This document shows, in pieces, positions 1,429-12,192 of a DNA stretch of 12,873 bases (position 1 is its first letter; every line of letters begins with the position of its first letter). The notes below the pieces were generated by a model. That model saw nothing but the letters and a program-made list of their open reading frames with translations. It did not search any database and was not told where the DNA came from. Where the stretch lies: assembly GCA_000787465.1 (NCBI GenBank), contig JSYX01000782.1, positions 1 through 12,873 on the forward strand. The letters are read 5' to 3'. The DNA comes from Thermomucor indicae-seudaticae. Taxonomy: Eukaryota; Mucoromycota; Mucoromycetes; Mucorales; Lichtheimiaceae. The translations under genes and the position numbers were made by a program.

Positions 1429-1866
1429 CCTGGAACGCGGCAGTAAAACATTGATGCGCCAGATTTTCTAAAGCTGCCACCCATAGTGCCCGCTCGATAT
1501 AGTCATCACCCCAGTGGCGCCACAAAGTGATCATCATAACTACAGATCGCTATATGGATTCAGTGATATTTCCCTGCGAGTGAAGTTGGTGCTAATTGAA
1601 AAGTGAACATTGCATTGAGCAGGCACTGTGTTTATAATGTCTTACATGGATGCATCGCCGAACAGCCCAGTCACTAACCCATGCTTACTGATGGCACCGT
1701 AACCTCGTACCACAACACCTACTGGCTTTTTCTTTGCAATTTGCGTAATTTGTATTTATTTTCGACGTTGTAAGTGATGCATCTTTTTCGCTAAGCATAA
1801 AGTATGATTTGCGTCAGTCGGAGAAGCACGTTCGAACCGAATGAGGAAGTATTTGCGCTCAAATTA
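1429..1866. other. Transposon interior without recognisable gene
   Basis: No supported coding region was found. By position it would include leader sequence upstream of the transposase remnant. Motifs resembling a pogo terminus (reverse complement starting CAGTAGGTG, at about 1698-1723) were seen but lack a TA flank. Confidence 0.3.
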
Positions 1867-2077
1867 TAGCGGCCCTCCGATTTAACGATGTTCGATTTGA
1901 CGATCACTTTTGAGCCTTCTCGAGTTTGTAAACTGGGAAATATCATTATTTCCGCCTTAACAATTATTGATCACTTCGGACGCTTCTATCGTTAAATCGT
2001 GAACCGATCAAAGGTATTTCGCTTAACGTTTACCCTTTGGATTCTCGCCCCAGAACGTTAAATCGAAGCAGCCACTG
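1867..2077. mobile_element. Pogo-like MITE, 211 bp
   Basis: The left end reads TAGCGGCCCTCCGATTTAAC. The right end, read on the minus strand from 2077, is CAGTGGCTGCTTCGATTTAA. The two match as imperfect terminal inverted repeats sharing CGATTTAACG. TA dinucleotides flank both ends (1865-1866, 2078-2079). The interior is AT-rich, holds further degenerate copies of the CGATTTAACG motif (for example the inverted CGTTAAATCG near 1992) and has no coding capacity. These termini differ from those at 1053 and 8195, so this is a separate element nested in the larger one. Confidence 0.6.
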
Positions 2078-2564
2078 TATTATACAGTTGCATAATGTCA
2101 GGAGGGGCTTCTATCCCGAATTCAGAAACTTGTGCGAAATATGTATATTTGCACAAAACTGCAATAAGGGAACTCCTGGAATCATTCTTTGGATTTGAGG
2201 TCGCATGAATGCCTAGTGATGGATATTTACTCACGCTGGTGTCTCTAACGGCCACTTTGTATATGACAGCTGGTTGGATTCGTTTTGTTTGCAGGATTTG
2301 GGACGAGTGGCATGCTTTCCCATCAAAATGATAGATTGGCAATTTTGGAGGCTCCAGGCTTCTCCGGGAGCCGATGATTGAACTATGCAACTCCCGTTGT
2401 TCGACGTACTCCATGTCTATAGCTAATTCGAGTCGCGACAGTGCTGAGACGGTGCCTGAGTCATGGCCTTCCGGCACCAGCTTTTGACCTTCTCCCAGGC
2501 GTAAGGTTAAGGTCTGTGTAATTTCGACAAACAGAAGAGACATATTGATAGATGCTGTTCTCAT
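2058..2564 (-). CDS. Uncharacterised open reading frame, 168 codons
   Basis: A clean open frame runs from the ATG at 2564 to a stop at 2060-2058. No domain, signal peptide or transmembrane segment is recognised. Its last codons and stop lie inside the right terminus of the MITE at 1867-2077, so if it was once a real coding sequence, its 3' end was replaced by that insertion. It could also be chance, since nothing beyond its length supports coding. Confidence 0.2.
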   Translation of the reverse strand: MRTASINMSLLFVEITQTLTLRLGEGQKLVPEGHDSGTVSALSRLELAIDMEYVEQRELHSSIIGSRRSLEPPKLPIYHFDGKACHSSQILQTKRIQPAVIYKVAVRDTSVSKYPSLGIHATSNPKNDSRSSLIAVLCKYTYFAQVSEFGIEAPPDIMQLYNTVAASI

Positions 2565-2967
2565 TTCCAGTCGGTTCTTTACGGCCGACAGACATTATGG
2601 AAATCTCCATCTTTGTCGTCCAAACTGATGAATATGATCGACGTAGTATACAACGTCCTCAAAGTTTCTGTGAAGCTGGCTTTGCGAATCTTTCTCTTGA
2701 CCATAACAAGTCAGAAAGTTGTGATATCTAGTGTTGGGAAACATCAACCGTGCATTCGCTGGCCTGAGCGTATACTCATAGTAAGCAATGATGGCTTGTC
2801 GTAAACAAGTTCTTTCTCTTGTTTGATACTGCTTCCGTCAGACGCAAGGAATAGCATGAATGTTGTCACACAAAACGGATGACTGAAACAGAAAGGCCAA
2901 CAGTTTGCATGAAAACGAGTGTTCTTGAGCTCGCGACCTTTTTCTTCTTCAAAGTGGACGGTCAACC

Positions 2968-3064
2968 ATGGGTGTAAAAGGCATTCATTACTTTGCGTCG
3001 AAAAACGGAGCATACCAAACTGTGCCATCGCTCGTGAACATTCTGGACGAGAGACAAATTACGG

Positions 3065-3095
<31 letters not shown>

Positions 3096-4491
3096 GACTT
3101 ATAGACTTTTGCGCTGTATTTTTCCCGTTTTTCCAGCAGCTTGTCGCAGAACACGCACTACATCTTGAAGTGATTAGAAAATTAAATCCTGGTACGATAA
3201 GTGGCATATTTGAACGGGGTTTTGGAAGCATGGAAAACTTACATATATATTATCAGATGATGCAATCCTCGTTAAGAAGCATGAAGAAGAGATGAAACAT
3301 TCGTTACGACGATTTGTCGACGTTGCTGTTGACCTTTCCAACAAGCTGCTGGATACGGGAGATTGCGGGTTGTGCCGGAGGGTGTGCTTGGTGATCGATG
3401 GTGACACTTTTCCTGCCAAGCGTGTAGCTGAATCTGCCCGACGCCAGAAGGCGACCAAGGCTTACGACGCAGCGGTGAGAATATGGACCGCTTCGACTGT
3501 TGTTACAAAGCGCAAGTGTGATAGATTTGCACGTCAAGCCAGGGACTGGGTACGAATGGTTCCAGCGCTGAGGTCGAAAATGATCGAGGTAAGTGCATAA
3601 ATGAAAAAGCCATGTTGCCCACGCTTATTAACCACGTGCTATGCTGGATCTCCAGATCTTGGAAAAGAAAGGTATAAAACTATACTCTGCAGCTGACGCC
3701 TGTGGTGCGGTCTCCTTTTTGAAGGCACCATTTGAAGCTGATCCTGTTTTGGTGTCCTTCGCTGCTGCGGCAGGTAACAGAGGAGCGATAGTGTCTCCAG
3801 ACGGCGACACATTGTGCTACACTGGTGGTCTGCTGGCCCTTGTAAGTGCTGTCTGCTTACGTTGGATAGGGCGTATCTGACCATTGCCTCAACAGCGTAT
3901 CCTCAGAGTGAATTGGTCTGATCCCAAATTGTCTGCAAAGATAACGACGAAGCAATTGGTACTGGATCATCTTGATTTACGTCAACCACAAGAGACAAGT
4001 TACAATCAGGTTTGGCCTTCCACTGTCCATTCTGCTGCATCCATGTATAAATGGGTCTGTTATATAATATCCAGGCAGAGGCAAGATGATCCGTGATTGC
4101 CGCAGCAAGCAGGAATGATTATGTAAGCAATATCAAGCAGAAGTCCTTCGAGGTTGTACGCCGCATTGTCATGCAAGCACGCAGTCGGTTGTGGTTCGCC
4201 GACGATCTTTTTGACCATGTATGTGCTGCACACTCAGGCGATCGTAATAAATTTTCTTATTTGTTTTAAAGCTCTGGAGCAAACTTGGATCGAATGATGA
4301 ATTCACGAAAAAGCGGATGACAATCGCCCTGCATCAATTTAATGTGCCTCTTGTATCAACTTCGGACAAGGTCTTCTATTTCAGCTCCAACAGCAAGCTA
4401 CGTTACTTCAGTGAGTTTATTATAAAAGAAACAGACAGAAAGCGCCTTTCGCAAGGCCCTCAAACTCGGTCTATGATGGTCAAAGCACGAG
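2968..4491 (+). pseudogene. Rad2/XPG-family (FEN1/EXO1-like) nuclease half of an XPG-Fanzor fusion gene, broken
   Basis: Rad2-family enzymes cut 5' flaps or duplex ends with two metal ions held by acidic residues. The ATG at 2968 gives MGVKGIHYF, the usual XPG N-terminal start. After a TA-microsatellite interruption comes IDFCAVFF, with the first conserved Asp. Then VIDGDTFPAKR (3388-3420) holds the second Asp and a basic residue. PFEADP (about 3731-3748) gives two acidic residues, VSPDGDTLCY (about 3791-3820) two Asp, and SRNDYV (4108-4125) the last Asp of the helix-hairpin-helix region, with Arg where Gly is usual. GT-AG introns are at 3589-3655, 3842-3895, 4010-4074 and 4219-4271 (53-67 bp). 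Damage: frame shifts at two TA tracts (3071-3108, about 3242-3255) and an in-frame TGA at 4087-4089. A fifth intron, 4492-4537, splices this half in frame onto the Fanzor half. Confidence 0.75.
3071..3108. repeat. TA microsatellite plus 8-bp duplication inside the XPG-like exon
   Basis: Positions 3071-3095 are an uninterrupted AT run of 25 bases, followed by ATAGACTT twice in tandem (3093-3100, 3101-3108). Upstream the frame reads ITDIHI and downstream another frame reads DFCAVFF. Removing the run and one duplicate would place the conserved Asp where the family has it, so the repeat is an expansion within coding sequence rather than an intron. There is no GT donor. Confidence 0.7.
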
Positions 4492-4537
4492 GTATACAGT
4501 ACATCAAAGAGTGCTACATAGGTCGAAAACCTACCAG
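4492..4537 (+). other. Intron joining the XPG-like and Fanzor halves
   Basis: The sequence starts GTATAC and ends CTACCAG, 46 bp, in phase 1. The upstream exon ends with VKAR plus G; the downstream exon continues with AT, giving Asp and then YTGHIPEFGNYVYP. Without this intron the upstream frame runs on as low-quality sequence and the downstream frame is closed by TAG at 4519-4521. The same length and style occur in the intron at 6622-6667. Confidence 0.6.
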
Positions 4538-6829
4538 ATTACACAGGGCATATCCCAGAATTCGGAAACTATGTTTATCCCATTGTCGCTCACAAGGTGG
4601 ACGAAAACCTCTTGGTGAAGTACCCGCAAAAAGAGGAGAAGAAAAACGAAAAGAAGCCGAGCTCCAGTCAAAGCACCATCAAGACACCAGATAACGCCAA
4701 CAAGCGCAATAGAAAGCAAAATTTATTTACAATCAACGATGGTACCGGTAGTGTAAGCACGATTGCAGCAAAGTCTAGGAAGAAGGTGACGTGGGATGCA
4801 GGCCTTTTTTCGTCAATTCTGTCAGCAGCGAAAACCCGTTGCAAAGACAATAATGATCTGTCTGTCAAAGAAGCGACTATCTTATGTGGAACATTAAGAG
4901 AATAATTGAATGATATGGCAATGGTGAGGCAAACAGCCTGTCAGCTTATGAACATCGTGCTACACATAGTAAACACTGGCAATTTTGACATGGAAGTCAA
5001 ACGCACTGTATATCGAAATTTCTTCATGTCTGACCGCAGTAAAAGAGGGGGGTACTCCGAGGTCTCCGGAGACTCGAAGAGCGCGGCAATGAAAACGTGG
5101 ACGTGGACGCTGCGTATGATTGTTAAAAAAGCCTGAGAACAAGAAGGCATAAACCATGACAAACGATGAATACAATCCTGGACAGCCAAGGATTAGCTAT
5201 AACGGAGAAATAGAAAACACGCAGAGCCTGAAAGCGTTTCCGAACGATGCCAATTGAGGACCTCCTGGAATTCACCAAGGACAACCGGATATTAGGCAAT
5301 TTCTTTTTATTGGCCAGGAAAGTTTGGTATCAAGGCTATCAGGACGATTGGAGCAAAGCTCCAGAATTCCCTCCCCTGCAGCATCGCTCTGACTTTATGG
5401 CCCAAACTGCACGAGAGTTAGACAAAGATTTTGGAGCAAACATAACACAGCAGCTTATACCACGCTACACGCAGTATATACAGGCAAGAAGGGCTGAAGA
5501 GGCCAGGGTGCCAGCGGGATGGCCGCGCCACGAATCCTTTTTGGTTTGGCTATTACAGCAATGCAATTCGACTACGCCCATAGACTTCTCTGTAATCAAC
5601 ACAACGTTCCCGTGGATCGGAGCCAAGACAAAAGATGCCATGCAGAGGTTTGTTCGAATGCTTCGCGAGAAGAGTATGTCGTGGAGTCAGACAGACATCA
5701 AACAAGAGCCCGTGTTCCTGGCTATGAAGAAAAAGACCATACCCGAGAACTGGCCAGACGACGAGGATTTTGTACACTATATATGCGATCGTATCTTACG
5801 TCTTGGAAAATTTCAAAATGATGACATTGACAAGAAGGTGCAGGACGCTGGCACAGACGTGCAGAGACAGATTGTCGAATTTATCACCTCTGAAAGACGA
5901 CTGTTGGAGGTTACATATGGGGTTCCTATTGTCGAAAAGCAGTCAGAGCAGGCACAGGTAGACGTAGGCTGGTGTCTCGGTCTTAGGGAACGACAGAGCA
6001 ACAATTGCAGCAGACAATGGGGTTTCCTCTTACATGCCACCATGCTTATCCATAGTTCTGGCAAATGTGGGAGCTTCGCGTTCTGCCCTACTGCATCTGT
6101 GTCCAGGCCATGCATGACCTTTTCTCGTCTTTTTACACATACGCTTCTGCAGAACTTTACGTACTTCGCTTCTACCTGGATTGCTAAGCAAGAAAAAGAC
6201 GCGCATAATTGGTGCAGCATAGCGGAAAGAATTGAGACTATGTACAAGCAGCAGCAAAACCCTATGGGTACAGCATTTACCTACTTACTTGACATTGGGA
6301 GAATGGCTTTCATCCAGCATGGGAAAGTCAGAGTTTCTAAACGTGGCTATGGGAGGGAATTGGCGAAGACTGTCCCTGGCATCCGCGAGCTGCAGCGATA
6401 TCAAGAGTGCGATGTTTTCAAAACCAATGGCGTCCGACTTATTTGCATGTACTATGATCTATGCTCTGCAAAGAACTCTCAACAGAAAGGGCTTCCTGAT
6501 TGCCATGGACTGGATTATCAAAATGAGATCGAGGCTGTGATCTGTCTGGATATTGGTGAGAGGTACACCACCGTGGCGTTTTGCATGCCGACTCCGTTCG
6601 ATCATGAAGGTTCGCCTTGTAGTATGTTCTAATGTAAGCCTAAGGTACTAAAGGGATGTATTTTTAGAAGAAGAGAAAGGTGCACGTCACCAGAAGGCCA
6701 TGAAACGTTCAGTGGACGACGATGCCACAGCCAGTCCCTCGGTGGAGGTATCGTGCCCAGAACGTGTGCTGGGAGCACAAATGGCAATTAAAAGCACGCG
6801 CTTACATGGGAGATCGAGTAAAAATACCA

Positions 6830-7116
6830 TGTAATGGTGCAGGGCTCAGGGCACCAGACTTACGATCGGAATCGTATTGCCAGATCGAGAGGAGAACCGT
6901 AATGTCGAAGCGAACAAAACGTGAGGATGTCCGAGTAGCGGACATCCGTCTTTATATAAGAAACGTCTGTGCGGAGACAATAAATCGTACACTTCTTTGT
7001 GCTACTTAAGCGTCTATCTACTCTATTCTAGGCTCTATCCTAATTGGGTGTCCGTCTGAAACCTTGATCCGTCGGTAGATACTTGTCCCGCTCATTGCTT
7101 CTGTAGCACCGCTACA
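6830..7116 (+). mobile_element. Solo LTR of a retrotransposon, 287 bp, inserted in the Fanzor exon
   Basis: It begins TGTAATGGTGC and ends GCACCGCTACA, an 11-bp near-perfect inverted terminal pair with the TG...CA ends of LTRs. It is flanked by a perfect 5-bp direct repeat TACCA (6825-6829 and 7117-7121), the target-site duplication made by integrase. Inside are a TATA box (TTTATATAAG, 6951-6960), a polyadenylation-type AATAAA at 6979-6984, and a perfect 9-bp stem with a 5-base loop (6925-6947) just before the TATA. Orientation is therefore plus. No retrotransposon internal region is present, so it is a solo LTR left by recombination. Removing the LTR and one TACCA joins the Fanzor frame exactly. 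Confidence 0.9.
6925..6947 (+). promoter_or_regulatory. Hairpin just upstream of the LTR TATA box
   Basis: GGATGTCCG and CGGACATCC form a perfect 9-bp inverted repeat around AGTAG, immediately before TTTATATAAG. It could be an operator-like palindrome or RNA hairpin of the LTR. Function unknown. Confidence 0.4.
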
Positions 7117-7741
7117 TACCATATGGTGCGCACAGCAGAAAATGGAGCACGGCGTACATATTGAGGAGCAACTGCTGAGTCGTGACTCAAAGTATGGCGG
7201 CTATGACGAGTACCTAGCGTACGTCCGTGCTTGGCAGAACTGCACACTACTGAAACCGTTCTACACAAGCAATTCGGTTGTACGCCGTCAATTGGACACT
7301 TATAGGAGCATTCGATCAGCTCATGACCGATGAGCATATGAGGTCTTAGAGCCTATAGTCAAGCAAAGGAAGTTCAAGGCTGCCGTTGTGTTTCGTCTGG
7401 ATGGTATAGCGAAGGCAGCAAGAAAAGGAGCAATGGCACCGCAGGATTCGAAGTTTGTGAAGAGCATCGAGCGCTCAAGCAAAAGCATCATGAGTCAGCA
7501 ACAGAACGAAATTGTGCTTGTACGTTCGAACGAATACTGCACTTCACGCATTTGTCCTAAATGCCTAACCCTCGGCCGGACTGTCTTCCTTAACCGCATC
7601 GACATGCGGCTTCTACGATGCCAATCGTGTACTACAGTATATCACCGAGACAAGATGGCTGCGTCAAACATCGTTATAATCGGCTATACAGAAATCGAAT
7701 ACTGCAAGAGGCCGGCATCTTTTATACCGAAAAGAAAGTGA

Positions 7742-7840
7742 ATCCCTACGTGTCGTTGGCACTGCCGTTTGGCGTACAGGTGAGTCAAAATGACTTCGCT
7801 TAAGCAGTTCAAACGGATCTTCTGACGCGACACGATATAT
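7742..7840 (+). ncRNA. Candidate omega-RNA region downstream of the Fanzor stop
   Basis: Fanzor and TnpB guide RNAs typically come from the sequence at and just after the 3' end of the gene, towards the element end. Here CGTGTCG (7749-7755) pairs with CGACACG (7828-7834), and a smaller AGTCA-AAA-TGACT hairpin (7783-7795) lies inside. No gene is evident. This is a positional and structural suggestion only; such short pairings can arise by chance. Confidence 0.22.
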
Positions 7841-8153
7841 AGTCTTCGAGATTGGTAAGAACAAAAGAAACATTTTGGCAAGTACATTGCAGGCTAACGT
7901 TCTGGGTGTTTGTACTGCTCTGGATGTATTTCGCGTCGACGAGTTCGCTCAGCAAGTATCGCTGGATTAGCTGGTAGGTGTCCAAAAATAAAATATCCTC
8001 TGCGTTCAAGTTCTCATTAAAGTTCATGGAATGGGCTTCATTTCTAGGGCGAAATTGCCTTTTGGTTGACGCAAAGAAAGACATCTGGAGTGGCAAAAAC
8101 ATCTTCAAAATCCAGTATAACCTGGCCACCTTGCGTCACAACGCTTTTGAAGA
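7841..8153. other. 3' non-coding part of the transposon, no recognisable gene
   Basis: Open frames exist on both strands (7978-8241 plus, 7809-8129 minus) but neither shows a known motif, and they overlap each other. If the element ends at 8195 this is its 3' flank, where a guide-RNA scaffold could extend. Confidence 0.3.
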
Positions 8154-8470: not shown

Positions 8471-8664
8471 TGCCCGCATATTGCCCAAATTTGTCGAACA
8501 AAGAAGAGGTGCGTGTGTGTGTGTTACACATAAAAGGCACACACGGATAATTCAAAAAGCCAAAGCGTGCCCGCATAATGCCCAAATTTGTCGAACAAAA
8601 GAAGAGGCGTGTGTGTGTCGCATATAAAAGGCACACACGAATAATGGAAAATGCAAAAGTGTGC
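8471..8664. repeat. Two-copy tandem duplication, unit about 97 bp
   Basis: Copy 1 (8471-8567) and copy 2 (8568-8664) both start TGCCCGCATA and share CCCAAATTTGTCGAACAAA, a GTGTGTGT tract, a TAAAAGGCACACACG block and an AAT-rich end. They differ by scattered substitutions and a few indels. The GTGTGTG and CACACAC parts of each copy can pair. The second copy lies directly before the P450 start codon and supplies a TATA-like motif. Confidence 0.85.
8621..8630 (+). promoter_or_regulatory. TATA-like motif before the P450 remnant
   Basis: CATATAAAAG lies in the second copy of the tandem duplication, about 20-30 bases before the proposed ATG at 8651. The equivalent site in copy 1 reads ACATAAAAGG, a weaker TATA match. 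The distance to the ATG is short for a fungal transcript, so this is tentative. Confidence 0.3.
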
Positions 8665-9857
8665 TTCTTACTTCCTTTATATTTTACAATCCATATCACT
8701 GAGCAGCGTACTTGGCGGCACTATCGCTGTGGTGCTTTGGTCTTTAGCATCGTCATCGTGTCAAAAGAACAACCGGTATTGTCCACCTTTTGCTCCGTAC
8801 TGAATTCCGAGGATTGGTCACCTTCTGCATTTTCTGAGACTGATGCCTATGCAAGAGCCCTTTCACCTATTGAGTCCAAAGCTGGGTCGTCCGGTGTTTA
8901 CCATCCAACTCGGCAGAAAGCACTGAGTAGTTTTGAACTCGATCGAGGCCGTGCAAACCTTGATTGCGGAGCGAAGCATTATTTATTCTTCAAGAGACTT
9001 GCCTGACACTTTGGTCAATGACCTTATGGATGGAGGTATTTAGATCCATGTCTAATAAAGAGTTCTCTTGTTATGCTGAGCTGTTATATAAATCAGTGGA
9101 AAAAGGTGGCGGATTCGCATTCTATCGCTACGGCAAACAATGGCGCTACCTACGTCGCATCGCCCACTCTGGTCTAACCAGAAAGAAGGCCGAACTGTAC
9201 CAAGCCATCTTGATCCAGCGACGCCTTGCGCTCTTGCAGAACATTTGGCCTGCCAATCGAGGCGCCACTGATGCGCCCTTGAAACTTAACCATTTGTTCG
9301 ACCACTGTGGCATGACCTTGATCCTGACCATCTTTTTCGCTGACACCTGTTCCTTCCAAACCGGAGACCCGGAACTTCATGAGCTTTCGCGCTGATGGAA
9401 CGCACGGCTGCTCCGCTCGGCCCCGGTGAACAATCCCGTGAATTCTTTCCGATCCTGAAAAAGATATTGCCCAGTACACGTAGTGAATTTGTGAACGTGC
9501 GCGAAACGATGCTATCATTCTATGGAGAACTACTAAGCAAGGCCAAGCAAGAAGTACAAAGTGGACAGGAGTGCTTTCTGAGCGAGATTTGAGAAAGAAC
9601 GAATTGAACGACTTGCAGGTCATTAGCTTCGCTGGCCTGTTTGTCGGTGCCGGTAAGAAAAGAAACGATGACGCTTTTGTGGGTCACATTGAATACCAAT
9701 TATTAACCTTCCTTGGCTTGAAAATATAGGATCGAAAACAACGGCATCTACCTTACAATGGATGATCGCCTTCTCTACTATGAAAAATGCATCGGTACTT
9801 ACGCTTAAAGTCCAAATTTGGAAAATGTATTCTTCTCAAAAAGATCTTCTTCTATAG
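8651..9857 (+). pseudogene. Cytochrome P450 pseudogene, N-terminal half only
   Basis: From the ATG at 8651 the frame gives a hydrophobic anchor (VLGGTIAVVLWSL), a Pro-rich hinge and VFTIQLGRK. After a 70-bp intron (9036-9105) comes the helix C pattern YGKQWRYLRRI. Further on are FFPILKKILP and, before and after a 77-bp intron (9653-9729), the helix I sequence AGLFVGAG/SKTTASTLQW with the conserved Ala-Gly and Thr. Defects: TGA at 8801-8803 and 8924-8926, both where Trp is plausible; a one-base loss near 9383-9386 (the frame moves from LHE to ALMERTAAPLG); a one-base loss near 9588-9592 (FLSEI to LRKNELNDLQ). The frame ends at TAG 9855-9857 shortly after helix I. The ExxR helix and the FxxGxxxCxG heme-cysteine loop are absent, so it cannot be an active monooxygenase. 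The substrate family cannot be told. Confidence 0.85.
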
Positions 9858-10795: not shown

Positions 10796-11235
10796 GACTC
10801 CAAGATATACAAGGTATTCCATGTTACCATCGCGGACAAAGTTCACCCTGATGTCTAATTATTGGACTTACGCTACCGTTCCCACACAAAGAAATGGCAG
10901 CTGCATGTACATAGCTGGTTTGCCCCATTATAGTATTTTGCCGATAAGCGCAAATTGGGATAATGTACTACAGTCCCGATACTAAATTCGTAATAGCCGA
11001 ATACACAAAGCTTCTAACCATGTTTTGAATGCTTTGTATCTGGCAACATTTTTAAAAGCAAAATAACATGACTAGAACTTGAATGGTACTTAGCTCCGTG
11101 CACATAATACAGGTCTGATAGCATAAAGAAATGTAAGGCGCGTATCTGATTGGGTGGACGATCGTGCGTGTCTACCCCATGGATTTGTCCTTCATTGTTT
11201 AAATACCTCTTTCTTCTCTGTCCTTAAAAACGTTG
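10796..11235 (+). promoter_or_regulatory. Upstream region of the HMG-box gene
   Basis: No gene was found. A TATA-like TTTAAATA lies at about 11198-11205, followed by a pyrimidine-rich stretch (CCTCTTTCTTCTCTG) ending about 15 bases before the ATG at 11236. This arrangement is common at fungal transcription starts. Confidence 0.35.
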
Positions 11236-12192
11236 ATGCGAACCAAATCTAATAGAATCTTGAAGCATCAATACCGTAGACCAATACGGTCTCGCTCGCA
11301 AGGCCCATCCGTATTATTTGTACAAAAGTTATCAATAACCCACGCCGGAACTCAGAGCTACCTGAAGATACATCCTAGTCAAACAAAAATCCCTGTCGAA
11401 GACTTATTATCAATGGTGTTGGAGAAGCGCAATTATCTGGTTACAGCCTCAGGAGAGCATGTGCAACGGCAAGACCTGCTTTCCGCCGCAAGCCATTTGC
11501 TAGAAGAGGGTAGAAGCCAGCACATTGCATCAACGGGAGCGACTTACAGCGACCCTCTACCATGGAATGCAGACGAACCCAGGAGGCCATCAAATGCATT
11601 TATACTTTACAGTAACGCTACAAGAAAACGGCTGCAGGAGATTTTCCCGGAATACCCGAACAGTGAAATATCAAAGGTTCTTGGAGCCCTGTGGAGTTCT
11701 GCGCCAGACAACGTGAAGCGGAAGTACACCGAGAAAGCGGAAGAGCTTCGAAAGCTACACAGAGAAATTTATCCAACATATTCTTATCACAGACAACAAC
11801 AGAAGAGAAGAGATTCGTCGCCTTGTCACAGCCATCCGGCCACAGACGGACAGCAGAGTTCATCAGATCAGTCTTACGAGCAGATCGATGCGATTTTGTA
11901 TCAATATCCAATTCCAACGGCAGAAGGACTACTTCAACCACCTTTTGAAGGACCCCATGCTGTATACCAAACTCTGCCCTCCGCAAATATGCAATTTCAA
12001 GAGAGCGGTTCTGCGAATAGCTGGGAGACCTGGCCTGAGTACATACAACAAGCTGACGAATGGCAAGACTTATGTAACAAGATCACTTCACTTTTTCCAT
12101 ATCCCGAAGATCTCCATCAACTGCTTCAAGAACCTACATGGCCGGTTCCTTCAAGCTCCAACAACCTTAACAGTGGCATTTGGAACACCTAG
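11236..12192 (+). CDS. MATA-type HMG-box transcription factor, 318 aa
   Basis: An intact single-exon frame runs from the ATG at 11236 to TAG at 12190-12192. The HMG box spans about residues 115-184. It opens with PRRPSNAFILY and continues with SEISKVLGALW, a conserved Trp, and KYTEKAEELRKLH, closing with YPTYSYHRQQQKRR, a basic tail that may serve nuclear import. This pattern (PNAFILY, SK-x-xG-x-x-W, H-x-x-x-YP-x-Y) is the MATA_HMG subfamily of fungal mating-type and related regulators, which bend DNA through the minor groove. The N-terminal 110 residues are basic then mixed. The C-terminal 130 residues are rich in Gln, Ser, Pro, Trp and acids, suggesting an activation region. In Mucoromycota such genes include the sex-locus SexM/SexP, but the usual triose-phosphate transporter and RNA helicase neighbours are not visible, so that identity is not claimed. 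Confidence 0.88.
   Translation: MRTKSNRILKHQYRRPIRSRSQGPSVLFVQKLSITHAGTQSYLKIHPSQTKIPVEDLLSMVLEKRNYLVTASGEHVQRQDLLSAASHLLEEGRSQHIASTGATYSDPLPWNADEPRRPSNAFILYSNATRKRLQEIFPEYPNSEISKVLGALWSSAPDNVKRKYTEKAEELRKLHREIYPTYSYHRQQQKRRDSSPCHSHPATDGQQSSSDQSYEQIDAILYQYPIPTAEGLLQPPFEGPHAVYQTLPSANMQFQESGSANSWETWPEYIQQADEWQDLCNKITSLFPYPEDLHQLLQEPTWPVPSSSNNLNSGIWNT

Follow-up and report, generated by a model that had tools for sequence, protein, structure and literature searches.

Fanzors, the eukaryotic relatives of TnpB, share with it the superfamily motif D-X(125,275)-[TS][TS]xx-C4 zinc finger-X(5,50)-RD (PMC3627910), while their own fingerprint combines a RuvC-I DPG with an alternative RuvC-II glutamate, which lies six residues before the zinc finger (PMC10711439). 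Most proteins of the Fanzor1 group, which includes SpuFz1 of Spizellomyces punctatus and PpFz1 of Parasitella parasitica, are 600-700 aa long (PMC11423790), and in the Mucor MCi-2 family the Fanzor-coding region is 6 kb long (PMC3627910). SpuFz1 makes a guided cut of both strands, with 5′ overhangs, next to CATA, and the biological role of Fanzors is described as unknown (PMC10432273). TnpB cuts element-free plasmids and thereby drives its element (PMC11870625). Here we report on a 12,873-nucleotide stretch of DNA from Thermomucor indicae-seudaticae (contig JSYX01000782.1; the whole stretch is called the window), in which an initial annotation had placed a Rad2/XPG-type nuclease fused to a Fanzor in one spliced reading frame. 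The window appears to carry a DNA transposon that targets TA, in the form of a decayed copy. The sole protein recognised in it would begin with an XPG nuclease like EXO1 or FEN1, continue through a basic, variable linker and end in a TnpB/Fanzor nuclease. Sequence comparison supports a recurrent architecture, open junctions, conserved active sites and element ends.

Recurrence of the XPG-linker-Fanzor order and its junction

The window was compared with a genome of 24.8 Mb in 735 contigs, in which it is contig C645. At 14 of the 19 element-type XPG loci that were followed, XPG half, linker and Fanzor half lie in the same order on the same strand; 12 of these loci were read (window included), and two, C272 and C368, were placed by the coordinates of separate searches, the XPG match at C368 being 32 residues long (E 4.7e-4). 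In tblastn searches with pieces of the window, ordered pieces were found at seven of ten genome places: C198, C591, C209 (locus L032), C431 (L033), C65, C134 and C4 (L039). The other three, C64 (cut by a contig end), C570 and C607, have Fanzor pieces without an ordered XPG part. The same architecture was also found at C671 (L049), C89, C300 and C8 (L053). Five of the 19 loci lack the full unit; C187 (L054) ends in the linker at a contig edge, C354 is truncated at a contig end, C156 retains XPG half and linker with no Fanzor match, and the remaining two are taken up below. Weak XPG matches at C551, C432, C524, C122, C118, C241, C708 and C391:23161 were left out of the count. Given the same order at 14 loci, chance adjacency of the halves was rejected. 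Between five full-length copies, the XPG half is 29-33% and the Fanzor half 30-41% identical in pairwise comparison, and since pairwise identity is about 30% the family consists of old lineages. The identities of the two halves correlate weakly (r 0.41, 5 loci), and congruent descent is thus not supported.

That the XPG half is a host gene beside a Fanzor was considered and rejected. Eight other XPG_I matches in the genome (C45, C52, C274, C30 twice, C165, C60 and C128), which we read from their open reading frames (ORFs) as host genes, score 37-98 bits, against 26-31 bits for the four element-type matches that pass the cut-off. Two EXO1-like ORFs, so named in our reading, lie about 9 kb apart on one contig (C30:22490 and C30:31169). 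Also rejected was an XPG part in every Fanzor-like gene of this genome, given that L042, L043 and L045 have no XPG match; at L042 and L043 this control covers short stretches of both loci only. L042 (C616) and L043 (C25) form a second Fanzor-like set with the DPG motif, and L045 has a Zn2Cys6 match of 20.6 bits, just under the cut-off of 21.

The fusion first claimed for the window is carried more by the relatives than by the window, and five junctions can be read through only with an intron or an indel. An own stop for the XPG part followed by an own start for the Fanzor was not seen at the cleanly readable junctions of L039, L032 and L054. There, the stop-free frames across the junction span 190 codons with XPG tail and Fanzor-side block together (L039; 0 of 5000 base shuffles), 277 codons (L032; 0 of 5000) and 107 codons up to the contig end (L054; 37 of 5000), shuffle figures that overstate the case because the stretches were picked as open. 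In L039, one frame of 944 codons from the XPG tail to the Fanzor end holds three stops, where shuffled sequence has a mean of 50 and none of 2000 shuffles had three or fewer. At L033 the frame would be kept, in our reading, across a putative 54-bp GT..AG stretch that contains a stop. The tail-linker frame of L054 matches a linker that L034 has in frame with the Fanzor block. The first conserved Fanzor-side block was found at eight of 11 loci scanned, and at four of these eight (window, L030, L031 and L033) an open frame without ATG precedes it, which in L030 is 17 codons only.

Identity of the two halves

By profile and predicted fold, the XPG half appears nearest to EXO1. A six-row profile of this half found human EXO1 at E 8.6e-11, FEN-1 (1a76) at 0.0011 and RAD2 at 0.0076, and EXO1 was the top fold match of an AlphaFold2 model (mean predicted local distance difference test, pLDDT, 63; E 3.7e-5, probability 1.00, template modelling (TM) score 0.42). 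XPG_I (PF00867) is suggestive only in the window (14.1 bits, cut-off 24.9). In a genome scan in which 12 of 18 matches passed the cut-off, it passed at four element-type loci (C65, C134, C431 and C187) with scores of 26-31 bits; pieces of L034 and L035 scored 30.3 and 25.1 bits, and the L039 piece had no match. XPG_N (PF00752) was below its cut-off in L035 (16.9 bits against 22), with no match in the L039 pieces or in L054. In EXO1 residue numbering, acidic positions like D78, E150, D152 and D173 are kept in six of six rows, a D30-like position in five of five readable rows, a D171-like position in five of six (N in L039), and a D225-like position in four of four readable rows. Judged from sequence, these residues would fit flap or end processing coupled to programmable cutting. 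With EXO1 and FEN1 (Rad2/XPG family) the half shares a start like MGxKG, the acidic positions, a lysine after the second aspartate and the fold; unlike them it is part of a transposon protein, and XPG_N and the XPG_I of several copies fall under the Pfam cut-offs.

In the Fanzor half, PF07282 (TNB, the OrfB zinc ribbon) matches window positions 7334-7738 with 39.7 bits, L031 with 42.4 and L039 with 39.8 (cut-off 26.3); genome-wide, 36 of 68 PF07282 matches pass the cut-off, and some of these fall outside the family described here. L031 carries the motif of Bao and Jurka 2013 as D61, T250-S251-R-I-C254, C257, C298, C301 and R307-D308. The RuvC residues D, E and D and the four cysteines, forming one RuvC centre, are kept in six of six rows, as is the alternative RuvC-II glutamate in the form [N/D]EYx[T/S]S (E247 and C254 in L031). 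The RuvC-I motif is DSG in L031, DFG in L039, L034, L035 and L030, and DIG in the window, with DPG in none of the six. The label Fanzor given at first therefore stands by half of the fingerprint: the alternative glutamate and the zinc ribbon agree with it, but RuvC-I reads D[F/I/S]G rather than DPG.

A RuvC/zinc-ribbon profile found TranC, the TnpB-like L79, SpuFz, Cas12m and TnpB; with direct references only, the same test was weaker (TranC 6e-4, L79 0.014, SpuFz 0.022, TnpB 0.17). Single-sequence and first-profile searches of the PDB with the Fanzor half found no Fanzor. SpuFz was the top fold match of the Fanzor-half model (probability 0.96; mean pLDDT 53, low confidence). With Fanzor1, then, the half has in common the split RuvC D-E-D, a glutamate that closely precedes the zinc ribbon, the TNB zinc ribbon itself, TA duplications as in the Fanzor element SPu-1, and SpuFz as best fold match; it differs in D[F/I/S]G, where Fanzor1 has DPG, and in the EXO1-like nuclease at its N-terminal side. 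A TnpB clade with the alternative glutamate and a D-hydrophobic-G motif (PMC10711439) has the same RuvC motif combination, except for the DSG of L031. Here the protein appears spliced and fused to an XPG nuclease. Protein searches, two of which scored the best approximately 8,000 word-sharing candidates, returned P0001 (public record, source lgn) and no relative in other species. P0001 is an open protein of 633 aa that is 99% identical to the Fanzor half of L031, so that a slightly different open copy of this type probably exists in the same species. Viral contigs gave one pattern match, not a relative.

The element and its copy in the window

Searching the genome with DNA upstream and downstream in the window located the ends of the element, which has the form TA-CTGG...CCAG-TA with short inverted ends and a TA duplication. 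On the left, alignments start exactly at 1720 in C391, C108 and C708, and from 1735 only in C104; on the right, the alignment stops exactly at 8117 in C391. The flanks differ in each case. C391 is a 461-bp internal deletion derivative in which window positions 1720-1869 are joined directly to 7805-8117 (90% identity). A transposon context, as first proposed, is borne out by these ends and by the derivative elsewhere in the genome, and the unit is larger than the one drawn at 2968-7741, the element spanning 1720-8117. Among 17 loci scanned, a similar left end precedes the XPG start by approximately 1.06 kb in the diverged L053 (3 edits) and a weaker one upstream of the XPG half in L049 (4 edits), with none at the other 14; the pattern had no match in 349,479 shuffled bases. 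Two of the four left flanks (C391 and C708) read CATA. A search for long terminal inverted repeats was unsuccessful, and Pfam recognised no transposase in the minus-strand ORFs at 2061-2594 and 5816-6280 or in the sense pieces tested. The features of the element in the window are as follows.

1720..8117, + strand: entire element, counted with its terminal TA dinucleotides (body 1722-8115), from shared boundaries with differing flanks
1720..1737, + strand: left end, TA-CTGGCTTTTTCTTTGC, with TA target duplication and short terminal inverted repeat
1869..2077, no strand assigned: nested insertion resembling a miniature inverted-repeat transposable element (MITE), flanked by TA, absent from the C637 relative
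2968..3066, + strand: N-terminus of the XPG half (MGVKGIHYFA...), with matches in L030, L033 and L039
3064..3096, + strand: (TA)n tract breaking the frame (TAG 3094), from sequence
3098..3588, + strand: XPG half from the first acidic motif IDFC to VIDGDTFPAKR plus a helical part, in two frames
3589..3655, + strand: putative intron, GTAAGT...CCAG, from sequence
3656..3841, + strand: XPG I-region exon (PFEADP, SPDGDT), from domain and sequence matches
3842..3895, + strand: putative GT..AG intron, from sequence
3896..4009, + strand: XPG exon, RILRVNWSDPKL..., with matches in the loci of relatives
4010..4074, + strand: putative GT..AG intron, from sequence
4075..4218, + strand: XPG exon with RNDY, containing the stop TGA 4087, from sequence
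4219..4271, + strand: putative GT..AG intron, from sequence
4272..4491, + strand: XPG tail exon (MTIALHQFNVPLV...), from sequence and matches in the loci of relatives
4492..4537, + strand: putative 46-bp GT..AG intron, sequence checked
4538..4902, + strand: linker and first conserved Fanzor-side block DAGLFSSILSA, in a frame without ATG before the block
4906..5133, + strand: Fanzor N-terminal part continued, after TAA 4903 up to TGA 5134, in part 48% identical to L032
5232..6632, + strand: large Fanzor exon, N-terminal part to RuvC-I (ICLDIGERYTT), from genome matches
6830..7116, + strand: solo long terminal repeat (LTR) in the Fanzor half, with TACCA at 6825-6829 and 7117-7121
7157..7738, + strand: Fanzor C-terminal part with RuvC-II NEYCTS, zinc ribbon and RuvC-III HRDKMAASN, TGA 7331 inside
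8101..8117, + strand: right end, ...AAAATCCAG-TA, in the window and C391 only

When the three forward frames are read, the XPG-like motifs and then the Fanzor motifs follow each other on the + strand in the order first described: MGVKGI at 2968, then IDFCAVFF, VIDGDTFPAKR, PFEADP, SPDGDT and RNDY, and 3′ of these CLDIGERYTT, NEYCTS, two CxxC and HRDKMAASN. The 46-bp GT..AG sequence at 4492-4537 is present and would join both frames if read as an intron, which makes it a putative one. A single frame without stops was found only locally, at 4538-4902, and fails elsewhere: stops lie in frame at TGA 4087, TAA 4903, TGA 5134 and TGA 7331, the (TA)n tract ends in TAG at 3094, and the frame changes before 5232. 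The Fanzor half is also interrupted by a solo LTR of 287 bp with a 5-bp TACCA duplication on both sides, a repeat with 28 genome matches including itself (76-100% identity). The window holds a dead, decayed element copy, whose stops, (TA)n tract, frame changes and solo LTR keep it from proving a fused protein by itself. Elsewhere in the genome, the large Fanzor exon matches 21 more stretches with E values of at most 0.001.

Matches in C637 skip from query position 1257 to 1479 across approximately 10 bases, that is, they lack the MITE-like insertion. C637, C254, C305, C338 and C59 hold copies of the 5′ region of the element (window approximately 2078-2415) with no XPG match in protein searches, and may be further deletion derivatives or elements with other cargo.

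Candidate roles and neighbouring sequence

A right-end guide RNA would bring the Fanzor half to a TA site that lacks the element, whether because of excision or because it lies on the other allele. The single RuvC centre of that half would break this site, with 5′ overhangs like those made by SpuFz1. Being tethered, the EXO1-like half would immediately degrade the 5′ strands, leaving 3′ tails; end joining would be suppressed, and recombination from the element-bearing copy would repair the break, with the element kept or copied. Taken whole, with the decayed transposon and its three-part protein, this account stands in our judgement at an even balance of belief and doubt. More tentatively, with doubt somewhat the heavier, the protein may be an 'exonuclease editor' of natural origin: resection enzyme and RNA-guided nuclease would share one polypeptide, which would make guided cuts recombination-prone and drive homing, and the lineage would stand apart from the canonical DPG Fanzors. 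A 5′ exonuclease is likewise paired with an RNA-guided nuclease in the human EXO1-based Cas9 editor, with which homology-directed repair goes up and non-homologous end joining down (PMC11107001), and in an active T5exo-Cas12a fusion (PMC8945719); those are man-made, whereas this is a natural protein family.

Several observations weigh against this account. At L030, L031, L034, L035 and the window the halves lie in different frames, so that an intron or indel is needed; all eight copies inspected closely (window, L030-L035 and L039) are either broken or truncated at a contig end; and at L031, which has the best Fanzor half (677 aa open), the XPG start is missing at the contig end and the XPG tail is in another frame. 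Pairing is incomplete as well. C452 and C710 are XPG copies with no Fanzor match in the DNA examined, and of the 33 contigs on which the Fanzor half was matched, no more than 13 have an XPG match. The remaining 20 hold mostly C-terminal pieces, some cut at contig ends (C294, C290, C215 and C64), and XPG-free copies may be among them: at C396, Fanzor N-terminal sequence is preceded by ample DNA in which there is no XPG match, and C570 and C607 likewise lack one. We read the unpaired copies of either half as decay. Foldseek TM scores are low, at 0.42-0.48 for EXO1 from a model of mean pLDDT 63 and 0.17 for SpuFz from a model of mean pLDDT 53. Predicted right-end RNA folds are inconsistent between the window and C391, with z-scores of 0.59 and 2.34 for the last 120 nt and 0.78 and -3.46 for the preceding 150 nt. 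The codon-position pattern of diverged copies speaks for the account, third positions differing most in XPG part, linker and Fanzor part alike: differences at codon positions 1/2/3 are 0.34/0.19/0.64 in the XPG part of L034/L054, 0.21/0.31/0.79 in the linker of the same pair and 0.37/0.25/0.69 in the Fanzor part of L030/L032. These figures come from tblastx pieces of at least 30 codons and at least 45% identity, a selection that favours conserved, coding-like stretches, and the recent pair L035/L051, in which L051 is broken, counts against, with 0.09/0.11/0.06 for the XPG-tail frame and 0.05/0.06/0.11 for the Fanzor frame. No ratio of nonsynonymous to synonymous change (dN/dS) is given for most diverged pairs because synonymous change is saturated.

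Granting the fusion, the XPG half might instead serve transposition and partly replace a transposase, by trimming the flaps or 5′ ends of excision intermediates and of gaps at the TA target, a role that the clean TA-flanked ends and the deletion derivative, with no transposase recognised in the ORFs tested, would suit. We nevertheless consider it unlikely: XPG nucleases are not known to join DNA. Moreover, SPu-1 of Spizellomyces, a single-ORF 633-aa Fanzor element for which TA duplications are putative, is mobile with no XPG part (PMC3627910), so that such ends do not require one. Similarly improbable is action on RNA or the R-loop, by which the XPG half would trim a guide precursor or cut the displaced strand and so aid the single RuvC. 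XPG relatives do cut at bubble and flap structures, and the Fanzor half has one RuvC centre. Against this, SpuFz1 cuts both strands (PMC10432273), and the profile of the XPG half is nearest to EXO1, a DNA exonuclease. Somewhat harder to credit is a relic family, in which the fusion arose once and only dead copies without a present role are kept; the broken state of all closely inspected copies and the many Fanzor-half matches without an XPG match agree with it, but the codon-position pattern in several diverged pairs, the 677-aa open Fanzor half of L031 and the open protein P0001 speak against it. Two separate, adjacent genes of one transposon with junctions open by chance, as the differing frames at five loci would allow, are very unlikely in view of the stop-free junctions of L039, L032 and L054, the near-open 944-codon frame, the codon-like divergence of the linker and the lack of an ATG before the Fanzor block at four of eight loci.

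A conserved EXO1-like fusion hints strongly, on genetic grounds, at a cut destined for repair by recombination, and makes this idea directly testable. If real, the fusion would also offer a natural precedent for engineered fusions that raise homology-directed repair, and would add a second RuvC-motif lineage among the eukaryotic TnpB relatives. No report of an XPG-Fanzor fusion was found in the PubMed Central literature, a scope that excludes most subscription papers, other preprint servers and supplements. In the text available, the co-mention of TnpB and XPG concerns Cas12a R-loops, those of TnpB with FEN1 and of Fanzor with exonuclease 1 are not such a fusion, and XPG, Rad2 and exonuclease are absent from the main text of the 2013 Fanzor catalogue as far as it was accessible (PMC3627910).

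Elsewhere in the window, a short repeat with many genome copies lies just outside the element (1485-1629). A cytochrome P450 remnant at 8964-9392 scores 17.5 bits, under the cut-off, and positions 8571-9772 have an 82% match at C538. An ORF at 11203-12189 encodes an HMG-box protein (PF00505, 64.6 bits), which could be a mating-type or other regulator.

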